Shown in pieces: positions 39,663 to 49,952 of a stretch of 64,000 bases of DNA. Below the pieces are notes generated by a model. That model was given only the letters and a program-made list of their open reading frames with translations, had not been told where the DNA came from and did not search any database. The position numbers were made by a program, and so were the translations under genes. Source of the DNA: Flavobacterium sp. KACC 22761 (GTDB taxonomy: Bacteria > Bacteroidota > Bacteroidia > Flavobacteriales > Flavobacteriaceae); contig NZ_CP139148.1 in assembly GCF_034058155.1 (NCBI RefSeq), positions 3,906,001 through 3,970,000 on the forward strand, given 5' to 3'. Within the stretch, counting starts at the first letter, position 1. Each line of letters starts with the position of its first letter.

Positions 39663-39813
39663 GGTACTATATTTTATGTAAAATTAATTTGCATTAATGA
39701 ATAGCAGATGAAGATATGCTTTTACCTTGCTTAGTATTAACTTAATGTTGTCTTAAGATGATTAAATTGGTTTATTCTAGAGCATTGAGGTTACTTCTAA
39801 GTATGAAAATTTT

Positions 39814-39821
39814 TATCTTTG
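39814..39821 (+). promoter_or_regulatory. TAnnTTTG promoter of the two-component operon
   Basis: TATCTTTG lies 44 bases before the ATG at 39866, inside the false upstream extension of the response regulator frame. Upstream, near 39730-39750, two CTTAA words about a helical turn apart could be a regulator site. Confidence 0.6.
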
Positions 39822-39865
39822 ACAAACCAAGAAGGGATTCAATTTTAAATCTAAATCGGAAATAC

Positions 39866-40531
39866 ATGCATATTTTAATAGTTGAAGATGAATTAGGAAT
39901 TGTTCAATTTTTGCAACAAGGACTACAAGAAGAAGGTTATTTGGTGACAACTGCCAATGACGGCTCAAAAGGATTTGAGTTGGTTCAAGAGCACCAATAT
40001 GACTTGATTTTGTTGGATTGGATGTTGCCTAAAATTAATGGTTTGGATTTGTGCAAAGCAATCAGAATCAAAGATCAGCACACGCCAATTATTTTTTTGA
40101 CTGCAAAAGATACCGTACAGGAAACGATTGCCGGCCTAAAAGCGGGTGCAAATGATTATATCAAGAAGCCATTTAGTTTTGAGGAGCTTGTAGAGCGCAT
40201 TAAAATTCATTTTAGACATAAAAAAGGAGATCAGGAATTGACGCTTGGAACCATAAAAATCGATTTGGCAAAGCATATTGTGCTTAAAGACGAGGAAGAA
40301 GTGGCGCTTACGCAACGAGAGTTTGAATTGTTGACCTATTTGATTCAGAATAAAGGTAAAGTTTGTACCCGAAACCAGATTTTGAAAGATGTTTGGGAGA
40401 TTAATTTTGAGTATGACACTGGTGTTATTGATGTTTTTATGAATGCCATCAGAAAAAAACTCAATTTGAAAATTGAAGAAGATTATATAAAAACAATTCG
40501 TGGTATTGGTTATATCGCTAATGATTTATAA
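39866..40531 (+). CDS. OmpR-family response regulator
   Basis: From ATG 39866 the protein has 221 residues. The receiver has E7-D8, phospho-acceptor Asp51 (LILLDWMLPK), a Thr in FLTAKD and a Lys in IKKPF. The C-terminal winged helix (LTQREFELLTYLIQNKGKVCTRNQIL ... GVIDVFMNAIRKKL ... IRGIGYIA) is the OmpR/PhoB DNA-binding domain. The frame runs back to 39758, but the first 36 codons are unlike the family and contain a promoter. The next codon after its stop begins the sensor kinase, so they are cotranscribed. Confidence 0.95.
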   Translation: MHILIVEDELGIVQFLQQGLQEEGYLVTTANDGSKGFELVQEHQYDLILLDWMLPKINGLDLCKAIRIKDQHTPIIFLTAKDTVQETIAGLKAGANDYIKKPFSFEELVERIKIHFRHKKGDQELTLGTIKIDLAKHIVLKDEEEVALTQREFELLTYLIQNKGKVCTRNQILKDVWEINFEYDTGVIDVFMNAIRKKLNLKIEEDYIKTIRGIGYIANDL

Positions 40532-41917
40532 ATGGAGCAACTATCCTTTAAACACAGAATCGCTTTAAATTATATCATAACAACAGGATTGTTGATATTG
40601 GTGGTTTTTTCAGCAACTTATTTTACCGTAAAATTTACTGTTTATAAGCATATTGATGAAAATTTGATGATTGAAATTAACGATCATTTAAAAGAAGTCA
40701 GAGTCGAAAATAATAAAGTGATTTTTATGGATGCCCAAGAGTGGGAGGAGCGAGAGCACAATTCTGTTGATGTGAATCCTGTTTTTGTTCAGTTTTTAGA
40801 TTTGAATAAAAAAATCATTGAAAAATCGCCGAATTTAAAAATCGAAAAATTAGTTTATCACGAAAGCAAAGACCATTATGAATTGTTTGATACCAAATTA
40901 TTAGGCAATAAAATCAGGCAAATTCAGGTTCCGCTTTATGTAAAGTCAAAAAAAGTTGGCTATTTAATTATTGCAATGTCGCTTTCTGACTCGGCTAAAG
41001 TATTGAAGAATCTTTTTGATACCTTGCTGATTGCTTTTCCGATTATTTTGGTTGTGCTGTATTTAATTGCGAGGTTTTTTGCGGGCCGAAGCATAAGGCC
41101 AATAAATGCAATTATAAATACGTCTAAAGTAATTACAAAAGATAATCTGAAAACGAGAATTCCGTTGCCGAAAACGCGCGACGAATTGTTCACACTTTCA
41201 AAAACAATAAACAATTTATTGAACCGAATTGAAGATGCAATTGAGCGAGAAAAACAATTTACTTCAGATGCTTCACATGAGTTAAGAACACCTTTAACTG
41301 TTATTAAAGGAACTCTTGAAGTATTGATTCGTAAACCTCGTGATAATAAGGAGTATGAAGAAAAAATTAACTATTGCATAAATGAAGTCGATCACTTAAA
41401 TGCACTTGTCGATCAGTTGCTTTTAATGGCGCGTTTTGAGAATCAAAAACAGAATATTAAAACAGAATCGGTTTATTTGAATTCAATGATTTTAGATGTT
41501 TTGACGTTGAATTCTGAGAAGATAAATGCGAAGAATCTTAATGTAAAATTCGATGCGATTACCGACTGCTATATCCAGTCGGATACTTTTTTAATGATTA
41601 CGATTTTAAGAAATATCATTTCAAACGCAATTAAATATACAAATAACGGAGGAAGCATTTTGATTTTGCTTCTGAAACAAAATGGCAAAATAATCTGTAA
41701 AATAAAAGATAACGGAATCGGAATTGCAAAAGGTGATTTGGAATCTATTGTGAATCCGTTTTTTAGGTCAAATTCAACTGATCATCCTGAAATTAAAGGA
41801 ACTGGACTGGGTTTGTCTATTGTTAAAAGAACTACTGAATTGCTTGATATCAAGTTTAAAATAGAAAGCGAATTAGAAGAAGGAACAACTGTGACTTTGA
41901 CTTTTAACGAGGGCTAA
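40532..41917 (+). CDS. Sensor histidine kinase
   Basis: The 461-residue protein has two transmembrane segments (about residues 14-34 and 163-187) flanking a periplasmic sensor region, a HAMP-like linker (FFAGRSIRPINAIINTSKVI), phospho-acceptor His249 in SDASHELRTPL, and an ATPase domain with N-box IISNAIKYT and G boxes DNGIGIAKGD and GTGLGLSIV. It is the partner of the regulator immediately upstream. The signal is unknown. The layout resembles CusS/QseC-type kinases. Confidence 0.95.
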   Translation: MEQLSFKHRIALNYIITTGLLILVVFSATYFTVKFTVYKHIDENLMIEINDHLKEVRVENNKVIFMDAQEWEEREHNSVDVNPVFVQFLDLNKKIIEKSPNLKIEKLVYHESKDHYELFDTKLLGNKIRQIQVPLYVKSKKVGYLIIAMSLSDSAKVLKNLFDTLLIAFPIILVVLYLIARFFAGRSIRPINAIINTSKVITKDNLKTRIPLPKTRDELFTLSKTINNLLNRIEDAIEREKQFTSDASHELRTPLTVIKGTLEVLIRKPRDNKEYEEKINYCINEVDHLNALVDQLLLMARFENQKQNIKTESVYLNSMILDVLTLNSEKINAKNLNVKFDAITDCYIQSDTFLMITILRNIISNAIKYTNNGGSILILLLKQNGKIICKIKDNGIGIAKGDLESIVNPFFRSNSTDHPEIKGTGLGLSIVKRTTELLDIKFKIESELEEGTTVTLTFNEG

Positions 41918-42030: not shown

Positions 42031-42038
42031 TATATTTG
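42031..42038 (+). promoter_or_regulatory. Promoter of the his operon
   Basis: TATATTTG matches the -7 box, with TTG at 42008-42010 placed 20 bases upstream as a -33 box. Transcription would start near 42045, about 30 bases before the leader peptide ATG at 42074. Confidence 0.75.
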
Positions 42039-42073
42039 CAACCGAATCAAAGAATTATAAAACAAACCAAACA

Positions 42074-42133
42074 ATGATTTCAAATCAATTACATCATCAT
42101 CATTTTCATTATTGCTCTCAGGCGATGTGTTAA
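42074..42133 (+). CDS. hisL: His operon leader peptide
   Basis: A 19-codon frame reads MISNQLHHHHFHYCSQAMC, then stop. Five of 19 codons are CAT, four of them consecutive (42092-42103) plus one at 42107. It lies between a good promoter and a strong intrinsic terminator directly ahead of hisG. This is the layout of a ribosome-mediated attenuator: scarce charged tRNA-His would stall the ribosome on the CAT run and favour read-through. The gene name follows its role; sequence similarity to enterobacterial HisL is limited to the histidine run. Confidence 0.88.
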   Translation: MISNQLHHHHFHYCSQAMC

Positions 42134-42194
42134 TGGTATGTGTGTAAATCATCATATTTTAAAACCCGTTTGAGTACATCAAACGGGTTTTTTT
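42117..42194 (+). promoter_or_regulatory. His attenuator: antiterminator and terminator arms
   Basis: The terminator arms aaaacccgtttga (42161-42173) and tcaaacgggtttt (42179-42191) form 13 perfect pairs with loop gtaca and end in a T-run. An alternative helix pairs ctcaggcg (42117-42124, inside the last leader codons) with cgtttgag (42167-42174), eight pairs including two G-U. It would use up the 5' arm of the terminator. A ribosome paused on the CAT codons leaves ctcaggcg free, and one that finishes the leader covers it. The folding is by eye. Confidence 0.8.
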
Positions 42195-42244
42195 ATACCA
42201 ATTCTTTGTACTCAAACTATTAATCAAACAACAACTAAAAAAAA

Positions 42245-43102
42245 ATGAGTACTTTAAAAATTGCAATTCAAAAATCTGGTCGTTTAAACGAAGACAGCAT
42301 TCAAATCCTTAAAGATTGCGGTATTTCAATCAACAACGGGATTGATCAGTTAAAAGCAGAAGCTTCAAACTTTCCTCTTGAAGTTTTATATCTTAGAAAT
42401 TCAGACATTCCTCAATATTTAATTGATGGAGTAGTAGATTTGGCCATTGTTGGCGACAATCTTTTGGTAGAAAAAGGAAAAGGAATCGAAGTGGTTCAAA
42501 AATTAGGATTCTCAAAATGCAAAGTTTCTGTAGCAGTTCCTAAAACATTTGACTACAATTCTGTGCAAGATTTAGCAGGTTTGCGAATTGCAACCTCTTA
42601 TCCAAACACTGTAAATGAATATTTTAGTAAATTTGGTTTAAAAGTCGATATTCACCAAATCTCTGGTTCTGTTGAAATTGCACCAAACATTGGGCTTGCA
42701 GATGCTATTGTTGATATTGTTTCAAGCGGAAGTACATTATTTAAAAACAACTTAAAAGAAGTTGAAGTAATCTTAAAAAGCGAAGCAGTTTTAGCAGTTT
42801 CTCCAAAAGTTTCTCCAGAAATCCAAAAACACATCGATACTTTAAAGTTCAGAATTCAGGCCGTTTTGCGTGCCAGAAATTCAAAATATATTCTGATGAA
42901 CGTTCCAAATGATAAAATTGATGCTGTAGGGAAGATTCTTCCTGTTTTAAGGAGTTTAACAGTTCTTCCATTGGCACAAGAAGGCTGGAGTAGTGTTCAC
43001 TCCGTAATTGACAAAGATACTTTCTGGGATGTAATTGATCAGTTAAAAGAAGTTGGAGCCGAAGGAATTTTGGTTTGTCCAATCGAGAAAATGGTTCTTT
43101 AA
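42245..43102 (+). CDS. hisG: ATP phosphoribosyltransferase, long form
   Basis: HisG catalyses the first histidine step, joining PRPP and ATP. The 285-residue length and the C-terminal ACT-like part (from about residue 210, VLRSLTVLPLAQEGWSSVHSVI) mark the long, HisZ-independent form, which is feedback-inhibited by histidine in characterised members. Motifs include IAIQKSGRLNEDS, LRIATSYPNTVNEYF and VDIVSSGSTL in the PRPP region. It is the first gene behind the attenuator. The 127-base gap to hisD is filled with low-complexity sequence. Confidence 0.97.
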   Translation: MSTLKIAIQKSGRLNEDSIQILKDCGISINNGIDQLKAEASNFPLEVLYLRNSDIPQYLIDGVVDLAIVGDNLLVEKGKGIEVVQKLGFSKCKVSVAVPKTFDYNSVQDLAGLRIATSYPNTVNEYFSKFGLKVDIHQISGSVEIAPNIGLADAIVDIVSSGSTLFKNNLKEVEVILKSEAVLAVSPKVSPEIQKHIDTLKFRIQAVLRARNSKYILMNVPNDKIDAVGKILPVLRSLTVLPLAQEGWSSVHSVIDKDTFWDVIDQLKEVGAEGILVCPIEKMVL

Positions 43103-43229
43103 AAAAAAGAAAATCTGAAGTGGAAATTCCAAATCCGAAGTTGTAGATGCAGCTTTGAAAACTTAGTGTTTTTCAAGACAAAGAGAATAATAAAACCTTG
43201 CGCCCTTTGCGATAAAAAAAAATAAAGGC

Positions 43230-44513
43230 ATGAATAAAATAGACAATCCAAAACCAGAAATCTGGTCAGAAATATTAAAAAGACCAACTCAAACTATTGA
43301 TGATATTGAGGTTACGGTAAAAGAAATTTTCAGAGAAGTACAGAAAAAAGGAGATGAAGCTGTAGCTAAATATACTTCAATTTTCGATGGTATTTCACAA
43401 GACAATTATGAAGTTTCTTTAGAAGAAATAAATGAAGCAATCGAATTGATTCCGAATGAATTGAAAGAAGCAATTCAATTGGCAAAAGACAATATTTACA
43501 AATTTCACAGAGCGCAGAAAACCGACAGAATTGAAGTTGAAACTGTTGAAGGAGTAAATTGCTGGCAGGAAAAAAGACCAATTCAGAAAATTGGTTTATA
43601 TATTCCAGGTGGAACTGCACCTTTGTTTTCTACAGTTTTAATGTTGGCAGTTCCAGCAGAAATCGCAGGTTGTAAAGAAATCGTGTTGTGTTCGCCACCA
43701 GATAAAAAAGGAAAAATTAATCCGGCAATTTTGTATGCTGCAAATTTATGTGGCGTAACTAAAATTTTAAAAGTTGGTGGTATCCAGGCTATTGCAGGAA
43801 TGACTTTTGGAACACAATCCATTCCGAAAGTATATAAAATCTTCGGACCTGGAAATCAATTTGTGACTGTAGCCAAACAATTAGCAACGCAATTTGGTGT
43901 GGCGATTGATATGCCGGCCGGACCATCAGAATTATTAATTGTGGCGGATGATACAGCAGTTCCGGCTTTCGTGGCTTCAGATTTATTGTCTCAAGCAGAA
44001 CACGGAACAGACAGTCAAGTGATTTTGGTTTCGACTTCGAGAAAATTAATCAATGAAGTTGAGGATGAAATTCAGTCGCAATTAGAGGTTCTTCCGAGAA
44101 AAACCATTGCAGAAAAAGCAATTGAAAATTCGAAATTGATTTACGTTGAAAACGATCAAATTGCTTTAGATTTAATCAACGAATATGGGCCTGAGCACTT
44201 TATAATCTGTTCAGAATATGATGATTTTTATTGTAACGGGATCGTAAACGCAGGTTCAGTTTTCATTGGGAATTATACTCCGGAAAGTGCCGGAGATTAT
44301 GCTTCAGGAACAAATCATACACTTCCAACAAATGGTTACGCGAAGAATTACAGCGGTGTAAACTTGGATAGTTTTATGAAATCGATGACGTTTCAAAAAA
44401 TATCTAAAACCGGAATTCAAAACATCGGAAAAGCGATTGAAGCTATGGCTGAAGCCGAAGGTTTGCAAGCGCATAAAAACGCGGTGACGTTGAGATTGAA
44501 GAGTTTAAAATAA
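43230..44513 (+). CDS. hisD: Histidinol dehydrogenase
   Basis: HisD makes the last two oxidations, L-histidinol to L-histidine, with NAD and zinc. The 427-residue length is typical. Visible motifs are YIPGGTAPLFSTVLM, the conserved GPGNQFVTVAK and MPAGPSELLIVAD, SQAEHGTDSQ with zinc ligands, and YGPEHFIIC and ASGTNHTLPT with the catalytic Glu and His. The operon order is hisG-hisD-hisC-hisB-hisH-hisA-hisF-hisIE. Confidence 0.97.
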   Translation: MNKIDNPKPEIWSEILKRPTQTIDDIEVTVKEIFREVQKKGDEAVAKYTSIFDGISQDNYEVSLEEINEAIELIPNELKEAIQLAKDNIYKFHRAQKTDRIEVETVEGVNCWQEKRPIQKIGLYIPGGTAPLFSTVLMLAVPAEIAGCKEIVLCSPPDKKGKINPAILYAANLCGVTKILKVGGIQAIAGMTFGTQSIPKVYKIFGPGNQFVTVAKQLATQFGVAIDMPAGPSELLIVADDTAVPAFVASDLLSQAEHGTDSQVILVSTSRKLINEVEDEIQSQLEVLPRKTIAEKAIENSKLIYVENDQIALDLINEYGPEHFIICSEYDDFYCNGIVNAGSVFIGNYTPESAGDYASGTNHTLPTNGYAKNYSGVNLDSFMKSMTFQKISKTGIQNIGKAIEAMAEAEGLQAHKNAVTLRLKSLK

Positions 44514-44600
44514 AAGACAAAGGGAGAAGAAAGAGCAAAGAAGTAAGATTTTAAAAAAAAAATCTTTCATCTTGGTTCTTGCTTCTAAAAAAATAAAGCA

Positions 44601-45650
44601 ATGAGTACTTTCGATATAAATACAATTACACGTGAAAACGTAAAATCCTTAAAACCTTATTCTTCCGCGAGAGACGAGTTTGAAGATTTTGATACTGCCG
44701 AAATGATTTTTTTAGATGCCAATGAAAATCCGTTTCAAAATGGCGTAAACCGTTATCCGGATCCACAGCAGAATTCGGTTAAAGCGATTTTGGCTAAAAA
44801 TAATTTAATAAAACAAAATCAGATTTTGTTAGGAAACGGAAGCGATGAAGTTTTAGACTTGCTTTTCAGAGCTTTCTGTGAGCCAAATAAAGACAATATT
44901 ATTTCGTTGCCACCAACATACGGGATGTATGGTGTTTTGGCGAATATCAATGCAGTTGAAAATAGAGAAATTCTTTTAACTACTGATTTTCAGCCACAAG
45001 TAGAAAAAATTATAGAAGCGGTTGATGAAAATACCAAAATCATTTTTTTATGCTCGCCAAATAATCCAACAGGAAATTCTTTTTCAGATGAAAGCGTGGT
45101 GAAATTGCTTCAAAATTTCAAAGGTTTGGTGGTGATAGATGAAGCGTATATAGATTTTTCAGAGAAAGAAAGCTGGCTGGCAGAAATCGATGCTTATCCG
45201 AATTTAGTAATTACGCAAACACTTTCTAAAGCCTATGGTTTAGCAGGAATTCGCTTAGGGATTTGCTATGCTTCTGAAGCGGTAATTTCAATTTTGAATA
45301 AAATAAAGCCACCTTATAATGTAAACGAATTAACACAGCAAAGAGCAATTGAACGCTTAAAAGATTCTGATAAAATAAAACAAGAAATAGCTTCAATTAT
45401 CGAACAAAGAGAAGAGTTACTTAAAGTTTTGCTTGAAGTGAGTTTTGTAGAAAAAGTATATCCAACTGAGGCCAATTTTATCTTGGCAAAAGTAGATGAC
45501 GCGAATAAAAGATACGATCAATTAATCGAAAAAGGAATAGTAATTAGAAACAGAACAACACAGCCTTTATGTGAAAATTGTCTTCGTTTTACAATAGGAA
45601 CAAAAGAAGAAAACGCTGTTGTAATTAGAGAATTGAAATTATTAAACTAG
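44601..45650 (+). CDS. hisC: Histidinol-phosphate aminotransferase
   Basis: HisC is a PLP-dependent class II aminotransferase converting imidazole acetol-phosphate to histidinol-phosphate. The 349-residue protein shows LDANENPF, NRYPDPQQ, LLGNGSDEVLDLL, CSPNNPTGN, VVIDEAYIDFS and the PLP lysine in TLSKAYGLAGIRLG, followed by the RNRT and LRFTIGT substrate-binding arginines. It is 86 bases after hisD; the spacer is purine-rich filler. Confidence 0.97.
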   Translation: MSTFDINTITRENVKSLKPYSSARDEFEDFDTAEMIFLDANENPFQNGVNRYPDPQQNSVKAILAKNNLIKQNQILLGNGSDEVLDLLFRAFCEPNKDNIISLPPTYGMYGVLANINAVENREILLTTDFQPQVEKIIEAVDENTKIIFLCSPNNPTGNSFSDESVVKLLQNFKGLVVIDEAYIDFSEKESWLAEIDAYPNLVITQTLSKAYGLAGIRLGICYASEAVISILNKIKPPYNVNELTQQRAIERLKDSDKIKQEIASIIEQREELLKVLLEVSFVEKVYPTEANFILAKVDDANKRYDQLIEKGIVIRNRTTQPLCENCLRFTIGTKEENAVVIRELKLLN

Positions 45651-45702
45651 AAATTATTAGCTACAGATTAGAAAGATTAAAATGATTTCTTTCTGTTCGT
45701 GA

Positions 45703-45752
45703 TTTTTAGCCACGAATTAAATTAGAGAAATTCGTGAATTCGTGGCTAAAAA
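45703..45752. repeat. 16-bp inverted repeat in the hisC-hisB spacer
   Basis: tttttagccacgaatt (45703-45718) pairs perfectly with aattcgtggctaaaaa (45737-45752) around an 18-base loop. The GCCACGAATT core is identical to that in the 5513-5594 element. A related TCTGTGAAATCTGTGGC tract follows up to hisB. The A-run after the stem argues against a plus-strand terminator, as expected inside an operon. Confidence 0.88.
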
Positions 45753-45794
45753 AATCATATTAATCTGTGAAATCTGTGGCAGAAAAAATAAATT

Positions 45795-46931
45795 ATGAAA
45801 AAAGTACTTTTTATCGATCGTGACGGAACGATTGTTTTAGAACCTGAAAATTATCAATTAGACAGCTTAGATAAATTAGAATTTTATCCGAAAGCCTTTC
45901 AATATTTGGCTAAAATCGCTACTGAATTAGATTACGAATTGGCAATGGTAACCAATCAGGACGGATTAGGGACAGACAGTTTTCCAGAAAATACATTTTG
46001 GCCAACACAAAATTTTATCCTGAAAGCATTTGAAAACGAAGGAGTTGTTTTTGATGAAATTTTTGTAGACAGAACTTTCCCTGAAGAAAATGCGCCTACA
46101 CGCAAACCAAGAACTGGAATGTTGACTAAATATTTAAACAATCCAGAATATGATTTAGAAAATTCTTTTGTTTTAGGCGATCGTTTAACTGATGTAGAAT
46201 TGGCTAAAAACCTTGGTGCAAAAGCCATTTTTATGAATGATACGGATGGTGCGGGAAGTAACGAAATTTCGGCAAAACGTGAAGAATTGAATGAAACAAT
46301 CGTTCTGCAAACAATGGATTGGAAGAAAATCTATGAGTTTTTGAAATTAGAAGCGCGTTCAGCTTCAATTACAAGAAAAACAAACGAAACTGATATTTAC
46401 ATCAATCTAAATCTTGACGGAACAGGAAAAAGCAAAATTGATACTGGAATTGCATTTTTCGACCATATGTTAGACCAAATCTCACGTCACGGTCAAATGG
46501 ACTTAGAAATCACTGTAAAAGGCGATTTAGAAGTCGATGAGCATCATACCATCGAAGATACAGCAATTGCTCTAGGAGAAGTTTTCGCGAAAGCGTTGGG
46601 GAACAAATTAGGAATCGAACGTTACGGATTCTGTCTTCCAATGGATGATTGTTTAGCACAAGCAGCAATTGATTTCGGAGGAAGAAATTGGTTGATTTGG
46701 GAAACAGAATTCAAACGTGAAATGGTCGGAAAAATGCCGACTGAAATGTTTTATCATTTCTTCAAATCTTTCACAGACGGGGCAAAAGCCAATTTAAACA
46801 TCAAAGCAGAAGGAATCAATGAGCATCATAAAATCGAAGCCATTTTTAAAGCTTTCGCAAAAGCGATAAAAGTAGCCGTAAAAAGAGATACCGAAAAAAT
46901 GATTTTGCCTTCAACGAAGGGAATGCTTTAA
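45795..46931 (+). CDS. hisB: Bifunctional histidinol-phosphatase / imidazoleglycerol-phosphate dehydratase
   Basis: The 378-residue fusion carries two histidine steps. Residues about 1-170 are a HAD phosphatase ([43 protein letters not shown]). Residues about 185-378 are the manganese-dependent dehydratase, with the two metal-binding repeats [10 protein letters not shown] and [15 protein letters not shown], and later [15 protein letters not shown] and [16 protein letters not shown]. This is the same fusion as in enterobacteria. It follows hisC by 144 bases of hairpin-forming filler. Confidence 0.97.
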
Positions 46932-47033
46932 ATTAGTCAAAAGTGGAAAGTCATAAAGTCAAAAGATTCCAAAATTGTAGGTATTAAAAATAGACTTTAA
47001 GACTTTCGACTTTCGACTTTAAGACTAAACAAA

Positions 47034-47615
47034 ATGAAAATAGTAATTATAAATTACGGAGCAGGAAATATTCAAAGCATTATGTTTGCTATTGAAAGAT
47101 TGGGTTTTAAAGCTGTTCTGAGTAATAATCGGGAGGAAATTAAATCGGCAGATAAAGTGATTTTTCCTGGCGTTGGCGAGGCGAGTTCTGCTATGACAAA
47201 ACTTCGAGAAAGTGGTTTAAATAGTTTGATTCCTGAATTGAAACAACCTGTTTTAGGGATTTGCCTGGGAATGCAATTAATGTGCAATCAAACGGAAGAA
47301 GGAAATACAAAAGGTTTAGGAATTTTTGATGTTGACGTTTTGAAATTTTCAAACAACGTAAAAGTGCCTCAAATGGGCTGGAATCAGATTTATGATTTAA
47401 AAACCGATTTGTTTAAAGGAATTTCTGAAAATGAATTTATGTATTTGGTTCACAGTTTTTATGCACCAAATTGCGCAGAAGCCATCGCAAAAACAAATTA
47501 CGATGTTGAATATGCGTCGGCTTTACAAAAAGATAATTTTTACGGAACACAATTTCACCCAGAAAAAAGCGGTGACGTTGGAGAGAAAATCCTTGGAAAT
47601 TTTCTAAAAATGTAG
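47034..47615 (+). CDS. hisH: Imidazole glycerol phosphate synthase, glutaminase subunit
   Basis: HisH supplies ammonia from glutamine to HisF. The 193-residue class I glutaminase shows FPGVGEASSAM, the nucleophile Cys in GICLGMQLM, and the catalytic His and Glu in TQFHPEKSG. The gaps to hisB (102 bases) and hisA (98 bases) contain tandem GACTTTAAGACTTT-like words. The cognate hisF is two genes downstream. Confidence 0.97.
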   Translation: MKIVIINYGAGNIQSIMFAIERLGFKAVLSNNREEIKSADKVIFPGVGEASSAMTKLRESGLNSLIPELKQPVLGICLGMQLMCNQTEEGNTKGLGIFDVDVLKFSNNVKVPQMGWNQIYDLKTDLFKGISENEFMYLVHSFYAPNCAEAIAKTNYDVEYASALQKDNFYGTQFHPEKSGDVGEKILGNFLKM

Positions 47616-47713
47616 AATTTTAAAATTTCAATATCAAAAATCAATTTCAATTTTTAGAGACTCTAAAATTTTGACTTTAAGACTTTAGACTTTCAAACTT
47701 TAAGACTAAAAAA

Positions 47714-48439
47714 ATGAGAATAATACCAGCCATAGATATCATTGAAGGAAAATGCGTTCGTTTGTCCAAAGGTGATTATGATACTAAGATAATTTACAAT
47801 GAAAATCCGCTTGAAGTGGCAAAATCATTTGAAGCACACGGAATTGAATATTTACATTTAGTAGATCTTGACGGAGCAAAATCAAGCAAAATTGTCAATT
47901 ATAAAATATTAGAGCAAATCGCAACTCAAACCGGTTTAAAAATTGATTTTGGCGGCGGATTAAAATCAGATGATGATTTAAGAATTGCTTTTGAAAGCGG
48001 AGCAAATCAAATAACTGGCGGAAGTATTGCCGTAAAAAACAGAGCAATTTTCGAAAAATGGATTTCAGAATACGGTTCAGAAAAAATTATTTTAGGCGCT
48101 GATGCAAAAGATGAAAAAATAGCAGTTTCTGGCTGGCTAGAAGAATCAAATGAAGATTTGGTGCCGTTTATTCAGGATTATCAATCAAAAGGAATTCAGT
48201 ATGTTATTTGTACCGATATTGCAAAAGACGGAATGCTTCAAGGACCAAGTTTTGATTTGTACAGTAAAATTTTGGCTGAAGCTGGCGGCATAAAGTTAAT
48301 CGCTTCTGGAGGAATTTCAACTTTCGACGAATTGCCAAAATTAGCCGAATTAGGCTGTGAAGGAACAATTATCGGAAAAGCGATTTACGAAGGAAGAATT
48401 TCCTTGAAACAACTAGAGGATTTTATAATTAGAAAATAG
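47714..48439 (+). CDS. hisA: ProFAR isomerase (HisA)
   Basis: HisA is the TIM-barrel isomerase opening the ribose of ProFAR. The 241-residue protein has the half-barrel phosphate motifs [12 protein letters not shown] and [12 protein letters not shown], and begins with the usual [20 protein letters not shown]. The catalytic Asp residues are in PAIDI and [10 protein letters not shown]. It sits between hisH and hisF, as in many his operons. Confidence 0.97.
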
Positions 48440-48555
48440 AACAATTGAAATAATGTGTCAATTAGAAAATTAGTCAATTATTTAGCGTATGGTTAAAATT
48501 ATCTAATTTTCTAATTTTCAAATTATCTAATTGTACAAATTGATACATTAAAAAC

Positions 48556-49311
48556 ATGTTAGCAAAAAGAATCATACCTTGCTTAGATATAAAAAACGGA
48601 AGAACCGTAAAAGGCGTTAATTTCGTTGACTTGCGTGATGCCGGAGATCCTGTAGAATTAGCTGCAATTTATTCGGCTGAAGGCGCAGACGAATTGGTTT
48701 TTCTGGATATTTCGGCAACAGAAGAACGACGCAAAACACTTGTAAATATGGTGCGAAGCGTGGCAGAAAAAATCAATATTCCGTTTACAGTTGGTGGCGG
48801 AATTTCATCTGTAGAAGATGTTGATATTCTGCTGAATAACGGAGCAGATAAAGTTTCGATCAATTCATCGGCAGTAAAAAATCCGCAATTGATTAATGAC
48901 TTGGCACAGAAATTTGGAAGCCAATGCGTTGTCGTTGCTATAGATGCCAAACAAATTGATGGTCAATGGATTGTGCATTTAGTTGGCGGTAAAGTGCCAA
49001 CAGAATTAAATTTATTCGATTGGGCGGTAGAAGTTGCAGAACGTGGTGCAGGAGAAATTTTATTCACTTCGATGGATAACGACGGAACTAAAAACGGTTT
49101 TGCAAACGAAGCTTTGGCTAAACTTTCAGAATTAGTAAATATTCCAATTATAGCTTCTGGAGGAGCTGGAAACATACAGCATTTTGTAGATTCATTTAAA
49201 GAAGGAAAAGCAGACGCAGCTTTAGCAGCAAGTGTTTTTCACTTTAAAGAAATCGAAATCAAAGCGTTGAAACAAGAGTTAAGAAATAATAATATAGAAG
49301 TTCGATTATAG
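48556..49311 (+). CDS. hisF: Imidazole glycerol phosphate synthase, cyclase subunit
   Basis: HisF closes the imidazole ring using ammonia channelled from HisH. The 251-residue TIM barrel starts [20 protein letters not shown] and carries catalytic Asp residues in CLDI and [11 protein letters not shown], with phosphate-binding VGGGISS and ASGGAGN. It follows hisA by 116 bases, a spacer made of AATTAGAAAATTA-type words that could fold on themselves. Confidence 0.97.
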
Positions 49312-49355
49312 TTTTAACTTTAAGACTTTGGACTTTACAACTTTAGACTAAAATT

Positions 49356-49952
49356 ATGGAAATCGATATCAAAAGCGCACACGGATTAATTCCGGCAATT
49401 ATTCAGGACTCAGAAACAAAAAATGTTTTGATGTTGGGGTATATGAACGAAGAATCGCTTCAAAAAACAATAGAAACACAAAAAGTAACTTTTTTCAGTC
49501 GTTCGAAGCAAAGACTTTGGACAAAAGGTGAGGAGAGTGGCAATTTTTTGAATTTGGTAAGCATTAAAAATGATTGTGACGGAGATACGCTTTTAATTCA
49601 GGCAAAACCAGTTGGCCCAACATGTCACACAGGCGCAGATACGTGCTGGCAAGAACCAAATGATGCCAATTACGGTTTTATTTCTCAGTTGGAGAATACA
49701 ATAAAAACCCGAAGAGAAAATGCTGATTCTGAGAAAAGTTATGTAGCTTCTTTGTTTGAAAAAGGAATCAATAAAATTGCTCAAAAAGTAGGAGAAGAGG
49801 CTGTTGAAGTTGTTATTGAAGCAAAAGACAATAATGATGATTTATTTCTAAGCGAAAGCGCCGATTTGCTTTTTCATTATCTAATTTTATTGCAAGCAAA
49901 AGGTTATCAATTGAATGACGTTGTTGAAGTATTGAAAAAACGTCAGAAGTAG
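49356..49952 (+). CDS. hisIE: Bifunctional phosphoribosyl-AMP cyclohydrolase / phosphoribosyl-ATP pyrophosphatase
   Basis: The 198-residue fusion performs steps 2 and 3 of histidine synthesis. The HisI part (about 1-105) has MLGYMNEESL, FFSRSKQRLWTKGEESGN, and metal-binding DCDGD and PTCHTGADTCW. The HisE part (about 110-198) has a helical MazG-like core with KVGEEAVEVVIEAKD and ESADLLFHYLILL. It is last in the operon, 44 bases after hisF. No clear terminator follows before 50030. Confidence 0.97.
   Translation: MEIDIKSAHGLIPAIIQDSETKNVLMLGYMNEESLQKTIETQKVTFFSRSKQRLWTKGEESGNFLNLVSIKNDCDGDTLLIQAKPVGPTCHTGADTCWQEPNDANYGFISQLENTIKTRRENADSEKSYVASLFEKGINKIAQKVGEEAVEVVIEAKDNNDDLFLSESADLLFHYLILLQAKGYQLNDVVEVLKKRQK

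Follow-up and report, generated by a model that had tools for sequence, protein, structure and literature searches.

The window, by which we mean the whole 64,000-nucleotide stretch of Flavobacterium sp. KACC 22761 DNA analysed here, contains eight histidine biosynthesis genes, presumed to be cotranscribed as hisGDCBHAF(IE), and a leader ahead of hisG. The features of this region (42031–49952) are as follows:

42031–42038, + strand: −7 promoter box TATATTTG of the TAnnTTTG type, identified by sequence
42074–42133, + strand: leader peptide gene MISNQLHHHHFHYCSQAMC, ATG at 42074 to TAA at 42131–42133, 19 sense codons, with a conserved, His-rich frame
42089–42147, + strand: protector hairpin (pause-type, 1:2), in which the His codons pair with RNA spanning and following the leader stop, predicted by folding
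42092–42109, + strand: regulatory codons CAT CAT CAT CAT TTT CAT, identified by sequence
42117–42124, + strand: antiterminator 5' arm CTCAGGCG, in the leader frame shortly 5' of the stop, identified by complementarity, folding and alignment
42161–42173, + strand: terminator 5' arm AAAACCCGTTTGA; 42167–42174 doubles as the antiterminator 3' arm
42179–42191, + strand: terminator 3' arm TCAAACGGGTTTT, then a T-tract to about 42195
42245–43102, + strand: hisG, first gene of the operon (TIGR00070 and TIGR03455 above cut-off)
43230–44513, + strand: hisD (NCBIfam above cut-off)
44601–45650, + strand: hisC (NCBIfam above cut-off)
45795–46931, + strand: hisB (NCBIfam above cut-off)
47034–47615, + strand: hisH (NCBIfam above cut-off)
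47714–48439, + strand: hisA (NCBIfam above cut-off)
48556–49311, + strand: hisF (NCBIfam above cut-off)
49356–49952, + strand: hisIE (NCBIfam above cut-off)

The original prediction, made from the letters of the sequence, had described a TAnnTTTG box, a 19-codon frame with five CAT codons (at 42092, 42095, 42098, 42101 and 42107) and a 13-bp terminator before hisG, together with an 8-bp helix competing for the terminator 5' arm and eight his genes downstream. All of these are present: the terminator stem is perfect and followed by a U-tract, with the hisG start 53 nt downstream, the competing helix joins 42117–42124 with 42167–42174 and includes two G.U pairs, and each of the eight genes matches an NCBIfam model above its curated cut-off. 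Our analysis added two features, the protector hairpin at 42089–42147 and an inner helix that lengthens the antiterminator.

We propose, at a probability of roughly 90%, that this leader controls the his operon by ribosome-mediated transcription attenuation. RNA polymerase would start near 42044, a position assumed from the promoter box, and transcribe the leader, on which a ribosome would initiate at 42074 without Shine-Dalgarno pairing. When charged His-tRNA is short, the ribosome would stall within the CAT codons, its leading edge stopping shortly before 42117, which would free arm 42117–42124 to pair with 42167–42174; with the terminator 5' arm sequestered in this way, the polymerase would read on into hisGDCBHAF(IE). 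When His-tRNA is plentiful, the ribosome would reach the stop at 42131 and cover the arm, allowing the terminator at 42161–42191 to form. In the case of no ribosome at all, the His-codon stretch would pair around and after the stop, half of the arm would be tied up, and the terminator would again form. We infer the transcription start, translation of the leader, stalling, termination and the control of all eight genes. A switch of this type, familiar from E. coli, is ordinary in kind and expected, and will not surprise a specialist.

Leader RNA from 42043 to 42195 folds to −36.7 kcal/mol (z = −5.2), and 0 of 200 dinucleotide shuffles were as stable. We folded the RNA from the assumed start at 42044 to 42178, i.e. 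before the terminator 3' arm exists, and placed a ribosome on it with an assumed footprint of the A-site codon plus 12 nt downstream and 13 nt upstream of the P site. In co-transcriptional folding with no ribosome, the hairpin at 42089–42147 formed and the antiterminator was absent; this hairpin pairs 42121–42124, half of the antiterminator arm, and 42117–42120 stay in its loop. With the A site at the first, second, third or fourth His codon, an antiterminator of 15–16 bp formed (−15.3 to −15.6 kcal/mol), and with the A site at the fifth a weaker one formed (11 bp, −7.7 kcal/mol). With the ribosome at the leader stop codon, the antiterminator was absent. In silico, then, stalling frees an antiterminator that excludes the terminator and a ribosome at the stop covers it, and the mutually exclusive hairpins of the original prediction behave as proposed once a ribosome is placed on the window's RNA. 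Protection in untranslated RNA was seen in the window as pairing of half of the arm, and in relatives by energy (discussed below). The free RNA to 42178 also formed 7 pairs between the 5' untranslated stretch and the terminator 5' arm, which in these predicted folds is a competitor outside the simple scheme. At equilibrium, the terminator was the lowest-energy fold of the full leader for every ribosome position, and therefore the switch must be kinetic, dependent on the order of synthesis. Known trp and his attenuation likewise depend on the order of RNA synthesis. The antiterminator duplex of the window alone beat only 93 of 100 shuffles (p = 0.07); the significance of the antiterminator is drawn from relatives.

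The leader was found before hisG throughout the close relatives. Among named contigs we took the best 80 of 560 hisG matches, one of which was excluded as its contig ends just before hisG, and a leader with HHHH and a terminator was present in all 79 usable contigs. A same-genus sample of 150 genomes, partly overlapping the named contigs, had hisG in 101 genomes at 102 places; we examined 70 loci (30 given plus 40 chosen from the remaining 72 places, mainly more distant ones), and all 70 had both leader and terminator. The original prediction had set loss of the CAT run or the frame in close relatives as its refutation, and no such loss was found in these 79 contigs and 70 loci. Histidine codons in the leaders of the 79 contigs were CAT in 382 cases and CAC in 9. 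In these contigs the leader stop codon was always TAA.

Within the family, 103 of 120 sampled genomes had hisG, two of them being the window's own genome and a genus member already included. Of the other 101 loci we examined 68 (28 returned and 40 of 73 further), each from another genus. A simple rule picked out a His-rich leader in 67 of the 68, and in 66 a comparison of the locus with 100 of its dinucleotide shuffles gave p ≤ 0.05; of the rule's picks one (L198) is doubtful, and its single miss (L202, HHRF) resembles a real leader. The 67 family leaders carried 238 CAT and 33 CAC codons, and their stop codons were TGA in 37, TAA in 20 and TAG in 10.

At the level of the phylum, 128 of 148 sampled genomes had hisG. 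It was at least 40% identical to the window's in 76 genomes, of which 5 were already included and 65 were examined; one at 39% was left out, and 20 of the 51 at about 27–31% were examined. A first set of 45 loci (L244–L288) gave a leader at p ≤ 0.05 in 40, comprising 10/10 genus or family loci (the genomes of L250 and L251 being already in the family set) and 30/35 outside the family, where weak picks include L268, L271, L283 and L284. A second set, with hisG 40–46% identical, had the leader in 18/20, whereas in a third (L328–L347, hisG 28–31% identical) a His leader better than shuffles was found in 0/20 within 300 nt before hisG. In this sample, then, the leader accompanies the more similar kind of hisG and was not found beside the divergent kind, where control of the his genes is probably different. 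A terminator lay between leader and hisG in 241 of the 255 regions with a leader, and these 241 comprise 197 distinct leader sequences.

Several observations on hisG itself emerged from the sampling. In 18 same-genus genomes (L158–L175), hisG is only 51–55% identical to the window's, and yet a His leader with a terminator was present in each of them; the operon may have been exchanged as a unit, leader included. A hisG match was missing from 49 of the 150 sampled same-genus genomes; of the 124 with completeness of 90% or more and contamination of 5% or less, 30 were without one. Judged by gene content, histidine synthesis appears to have been lost frequently in the genus.

Leaders of another form were seen in the same phylum but another class, in the family that we label f21 (L285, L286, L288, L317–L319, L321 and L323–L327). 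These are 23–34 residues long and carry 9–11 His, e.g. ...HHAHHGHHH..., ahead of hisG. In L285, L286 and L288 a search for terminators gave no hairpin followed by a U-tract, and the folds of L318, L319, L323, L324, L326 and L327 contained no clear terminator, so that the output step of these very His-rich leaders may differ. Such lineages, with long His-rich leaders lacking a clear terminator, lend something to the view that the window's leader, too, acts mainly on hisG translation, through re-initiation or masking of the start site, with the terminator secondary, as does a 7-bp helix adjoining the hisG start that the RNA after the terminator can form. However, the window has a perfect 13-bp terminator with a U-tract, 53 nt ahead of hisG; the 7-bp helix does not exceed shuffles in stability (z −0.73), and neither does any fold between terminator and hisG start. 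We consider a mainly translational role very unlikely.

We looked at complementarity between the antiterminator arm and the terminator in the 241 loci with a terminator, many of which are close relatives. The best upstream complement of the terminator 5' arm was significant at p ≤ 0.05 in 218 of them and at p ≤ 0.01 in 152 (100 shuffles), and not significant in 23; at p ≤ 0.05 the counts were 60/65 in the family and 69/79 in the named contigs. The complement usually lay no more than 20 nt ahead of the leader stop or extended into the first bases of the stop: it was at −19 to −6 of the stop in 72/79 contigs, and its commonest places in the family were −13 to +1 (14/65), −13 to −3 (11) and −12 to −3 (9). 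In its fullest family form the antiterminator pairs CTCARGCGAGGT with ACCCGTTTGAG through 8 bp and, beyond a bulged A, a further 3 bp. All of the 8 bp are present in the window, where the last three positions are an unpaired T-C, then G-C and T-A. In loci outside the family, the two arms were replaced as pairs (L256, L260, L263, L270 and L281), for example by GGGTAAGC with GCTTACCC in L270, AGCCGGG with CCCGGCT in L281, and GCAGGTAG with CTACCTG in L256.

Covariation was counted in an alignment (A1) of 81 leaders: the window's own and 80 from relatives. Two of the 82 prepared from relatives were excluded before counting, L182 because its frame is shorter and L232 because its arm is no better than shuffles (p = 0.31). 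For the antiterminator, 88.1% of cells were paired, compared with 21–48% (at most 47.8%) in slid controls, and for the terminator 94.0%, compared with 16–57% (at most 57.0%). Compensatory changes upstream of relatives' hisG, suggested as a check in the original prediction, were found: 34 antiterminator cells and 21 terminator cells were changed on both sides (shuffled means 13.6 and 2.8, each count reached in 0/500 shuffles, which take no account of relatedness). Both-side change occurred in 5 antiterminator pairs (2/500 shuffles), and further pair types, at 12, were barely above the shuffled 10.5 (31/500). The antiterminator changes came mostly from one outermost pair (25 of the 34 cells), which is unformed in 33 of the 81 rows, the window (T-T) among them.

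The antiterminator arm is in the leader's frame in 207 of 209 scorable genus and family loci (7 were unscorable). The peptide tail, CSQAMC in the window, becomes AQAR, TQAK, LTRE or another sequence in relatives, yet complementarity of the RNA arm is mostly preserved. We therefore read the tail as an RNA constraint and set aside selection at the level of the peptide; the tail may also have a peptide role, given that the arm is in the same frame in 207/209. A hairpin straddling the leader stop codon was significant (p ≤ 0.05) in 9/48 loci outside the family and in 0/66 family loci. Short hairpins enclosing or straddling the leader stop, such as ATTCCTC-TTGA-GAGGAAT, were noticed in L266, L269, L274, L277, L286 and L323.

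We then asked of each leader how much free energy the terminator 5' arm gains by upstream pairing in four situations: free RNA, a ribosome at the first His codon, one at the last His codon, and one at the stop. Thresholds of −6 (stalled) and −2.5 (stop) were our own choice, fixed before results, and a protector condition required the gain in free RNA to be at least 3 kcal/mol weaker. This criterion replaced an earlier base-pair score, because that score counted weak helices as antiterminators; it had given 9/79 contigs, 25/70 genus, 31/65 family and 16/27 phylum loci (controls 11–14%), and, with free RNA included, 8/79, 15/70, 14/65 and 8/27 (controls 5–6%). By energy, the family means were −2.9 in free RNA, −8.7 at the first His, −9.2 at the last His and −1.3 at the stop, and the shuffled means −3.4, −3.3, −3.3 and −2.9, respectively. 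The switch criterion was passed by 58/65 family, 48/79 contig, 43/70 genus and 17/27 phylum loci (shuffles 2.2–3.1%), and with the protector condition by 54/65, 48/79, 42/70 and 15/27 (shuffles 0.5–1.0%). Counted as distinct leaders, these were 139/197 and 132/197, with shuffled controls of 2.8% and 0.8%. The window's leader passes both (free −2.8, first His −6.6, last His −4.0, stop −1.4). The switch thresholds were missed by 31/79 contigs and 27/70 genus loci, and the stalled energy beat all 30 shuffles in only 42/65 family, 27/79 contig, 24/70 genus and 13/27 phylum loci. At the level of sequence and folding, the first reading of this locus as an attenuator is supported: the his leader has the parts, the geometry and the folds, and its conservation and preserved complementarity are observed across relatives.

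A strong conserved structure with an alternative fold would also be seen if a riboswitch, T-box or protein-bound leader sensed histidine or tRNA directly, without translation. This is extremely unlikely, however, in light of the conserved His run in an open frame, with the stop codon at the arm and the arm in frame as counted above, and no Rfam family, T-box included, reached its gathering score anywhere in the 64-kb window; the T-box model gave no match up to E 1 around the leader.

Other leaders sharing the arm CTCAGGCGATGTG were sought in the window's own genome, and among 25 sites with at most 2 mismatches only the hisG leader was of this kind. A search of 60 genomes with model R1, in which we inspected 14 matches among those listed, gave four strong ones, all His leaders before hisG, and one weak match (L296) that is likewise a His leader before hisG; other genes under the same leader were not supported among the matches listed, the remaining nine weak ones resembling plain terminators or chance.

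In the 80 nt preceding the leader ATG, a TAnnTTTG box was found in 79/79 contigs and in 70/70 same-genus loci, and equal control stretches further upstream had one in 1/79 and 3/70; in the other sets the box was present in only 17/67 family loci (control 4) and 18/39 phylum loci (control 2). That the hairpin only terminates the upstream gene pair (39758–41917), with the His frame a chance reading, is hardly credible: intrinsic terminators between gene groups are ordinary, and the nine weak matches elsewhere resemble plain terminators or chance, but the box lies just before the leader in 149/149 same-genus loci, a His frame better than shuffles is present in 66/68 family loci and the complementary arm is conserved. 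The position of the box places the terminator most likely inside the his transcript.

A four-base piece of AGGAGG 5–18 nt before the leader start was found in 0/79 contigs, 1/67 family and 0/39 phylum leaders; the absence of a Shine-Dalgarno core that had been foreseen holds for the window's leader and its relatives. The bases before the leader start are rich in A, most markedly in the genus, and the window's start has A at −3. F. johnsoniae and its phylum are reported to lack Shine-Dalgarno sequences, with A at −3 aiding initiation (PMC6847099), and Bacteroidia ribosomes to sequester their anti-Shine-Dalgarno tail (PMC9976891). Leader initiation must work without Shine-Dalgarno pairing, and the timing of polymerase and ribosome would then have to be set otherwise. 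The protector hairpin is a candidate pause site that would keep ribosome and polymerase in step, and perhaps the timing is set by this hairpin together with the A-rich start site.

The locus thus offers a simple, strongly predicted attenuator in a group whose translation starts without Shine-Dalgarno pairing. It makes coupling of the polymerase to the first ribosome without such pairing directly testable, in a clean test system for attenuation. The comparative set outlines a group of His leaders missed by the curated Rfam model in the window, and with it many his operons in the phylum could be annotated as attenuated. More tentatively, and with the odds against so broad a reading, the His-leader attenuator could be old and vertically kept in much of Bacteroidota, its frame staying while antiterminator and terminator arms were repeatedly co-replaced and f21-type leaders, grown to 9–11 His, came to drive another output that uses no recognisable intrinsic terminator, all without Shine-Dalgarno pairing.

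Among known systems, the leader resembles enterobacterial hisL (RF00514), with a His-codon run, protector, antiterminator and terminator ahead of hisG and a compact his operon. RF00514 (His_leader) was its best Rfam match, spanning the whole model length at 33.9 bits (E 0.0004 over 231 bases), below the gathering score of 49. Among family relatives, 1/20 matched at E ≤ 1 (L212, 29.2 bits, E 0.15), and descent from the enterobacterial leader, or ancestry shared with RF00514, is therefore unsupported. The Flavobacterium leader differs from the enterobacterial his attenuator in having no Shine-Dalgarno core ahead of its start.

In Firmicutes, leader peptides with His-codon runs are reported before his operons or hisS/hisZ (PMC9413887, PMC2965389), with terminator and antiterminator (PMC9413887), in other phyla and with other sequences than the window's. 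In 2010, the authors of PMC2965389 wrote that they knew of no leader peptide system demonstrated outside Proteobacteria and Actinobacteria. PMC3766115, PMC4833913 and PMC8305728 treat attenuators or his genes elsewhere, and no Bacteroidota hisG leader peptide was found in the accessible portions of these five papers. A close precedent is the mapped transcriptome of F. psychrophilum (PMC9723704), which reports structured 5' elements upstream of hisG and pheA and strong indications that amino-acid operons are preceded by leader-peptide attenuators; its hisG element, at the same gene and in the same bacterial family as the window's leader, is also found in other Flavobacteriaceae genera, without an Rfam hit. 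As covered here, that study gives no hisG peptide, antiterminator or covariation, which its supplement (Table S7) may contain. In the full-text literature searched, which includes few subscription papers, no description of a Bacteroidota hisG leader peptide was found besides PMC9723704.

The kind of attenuator is thus already known, and its presence at hisG in Flavobacteriaceae already indicated. Attenuators in some members of Bacteroidetes/Chlorobi are reportedly mentioned by Vitreschak and colleagues (2004, FEMS Microbiol Lett), in which case priority would be older. To these known systems the present analysis adds, as far as we have seen, the peptide, the three states of the leader, the covariation, and the spread of the attenuator and its limits within the phylum.
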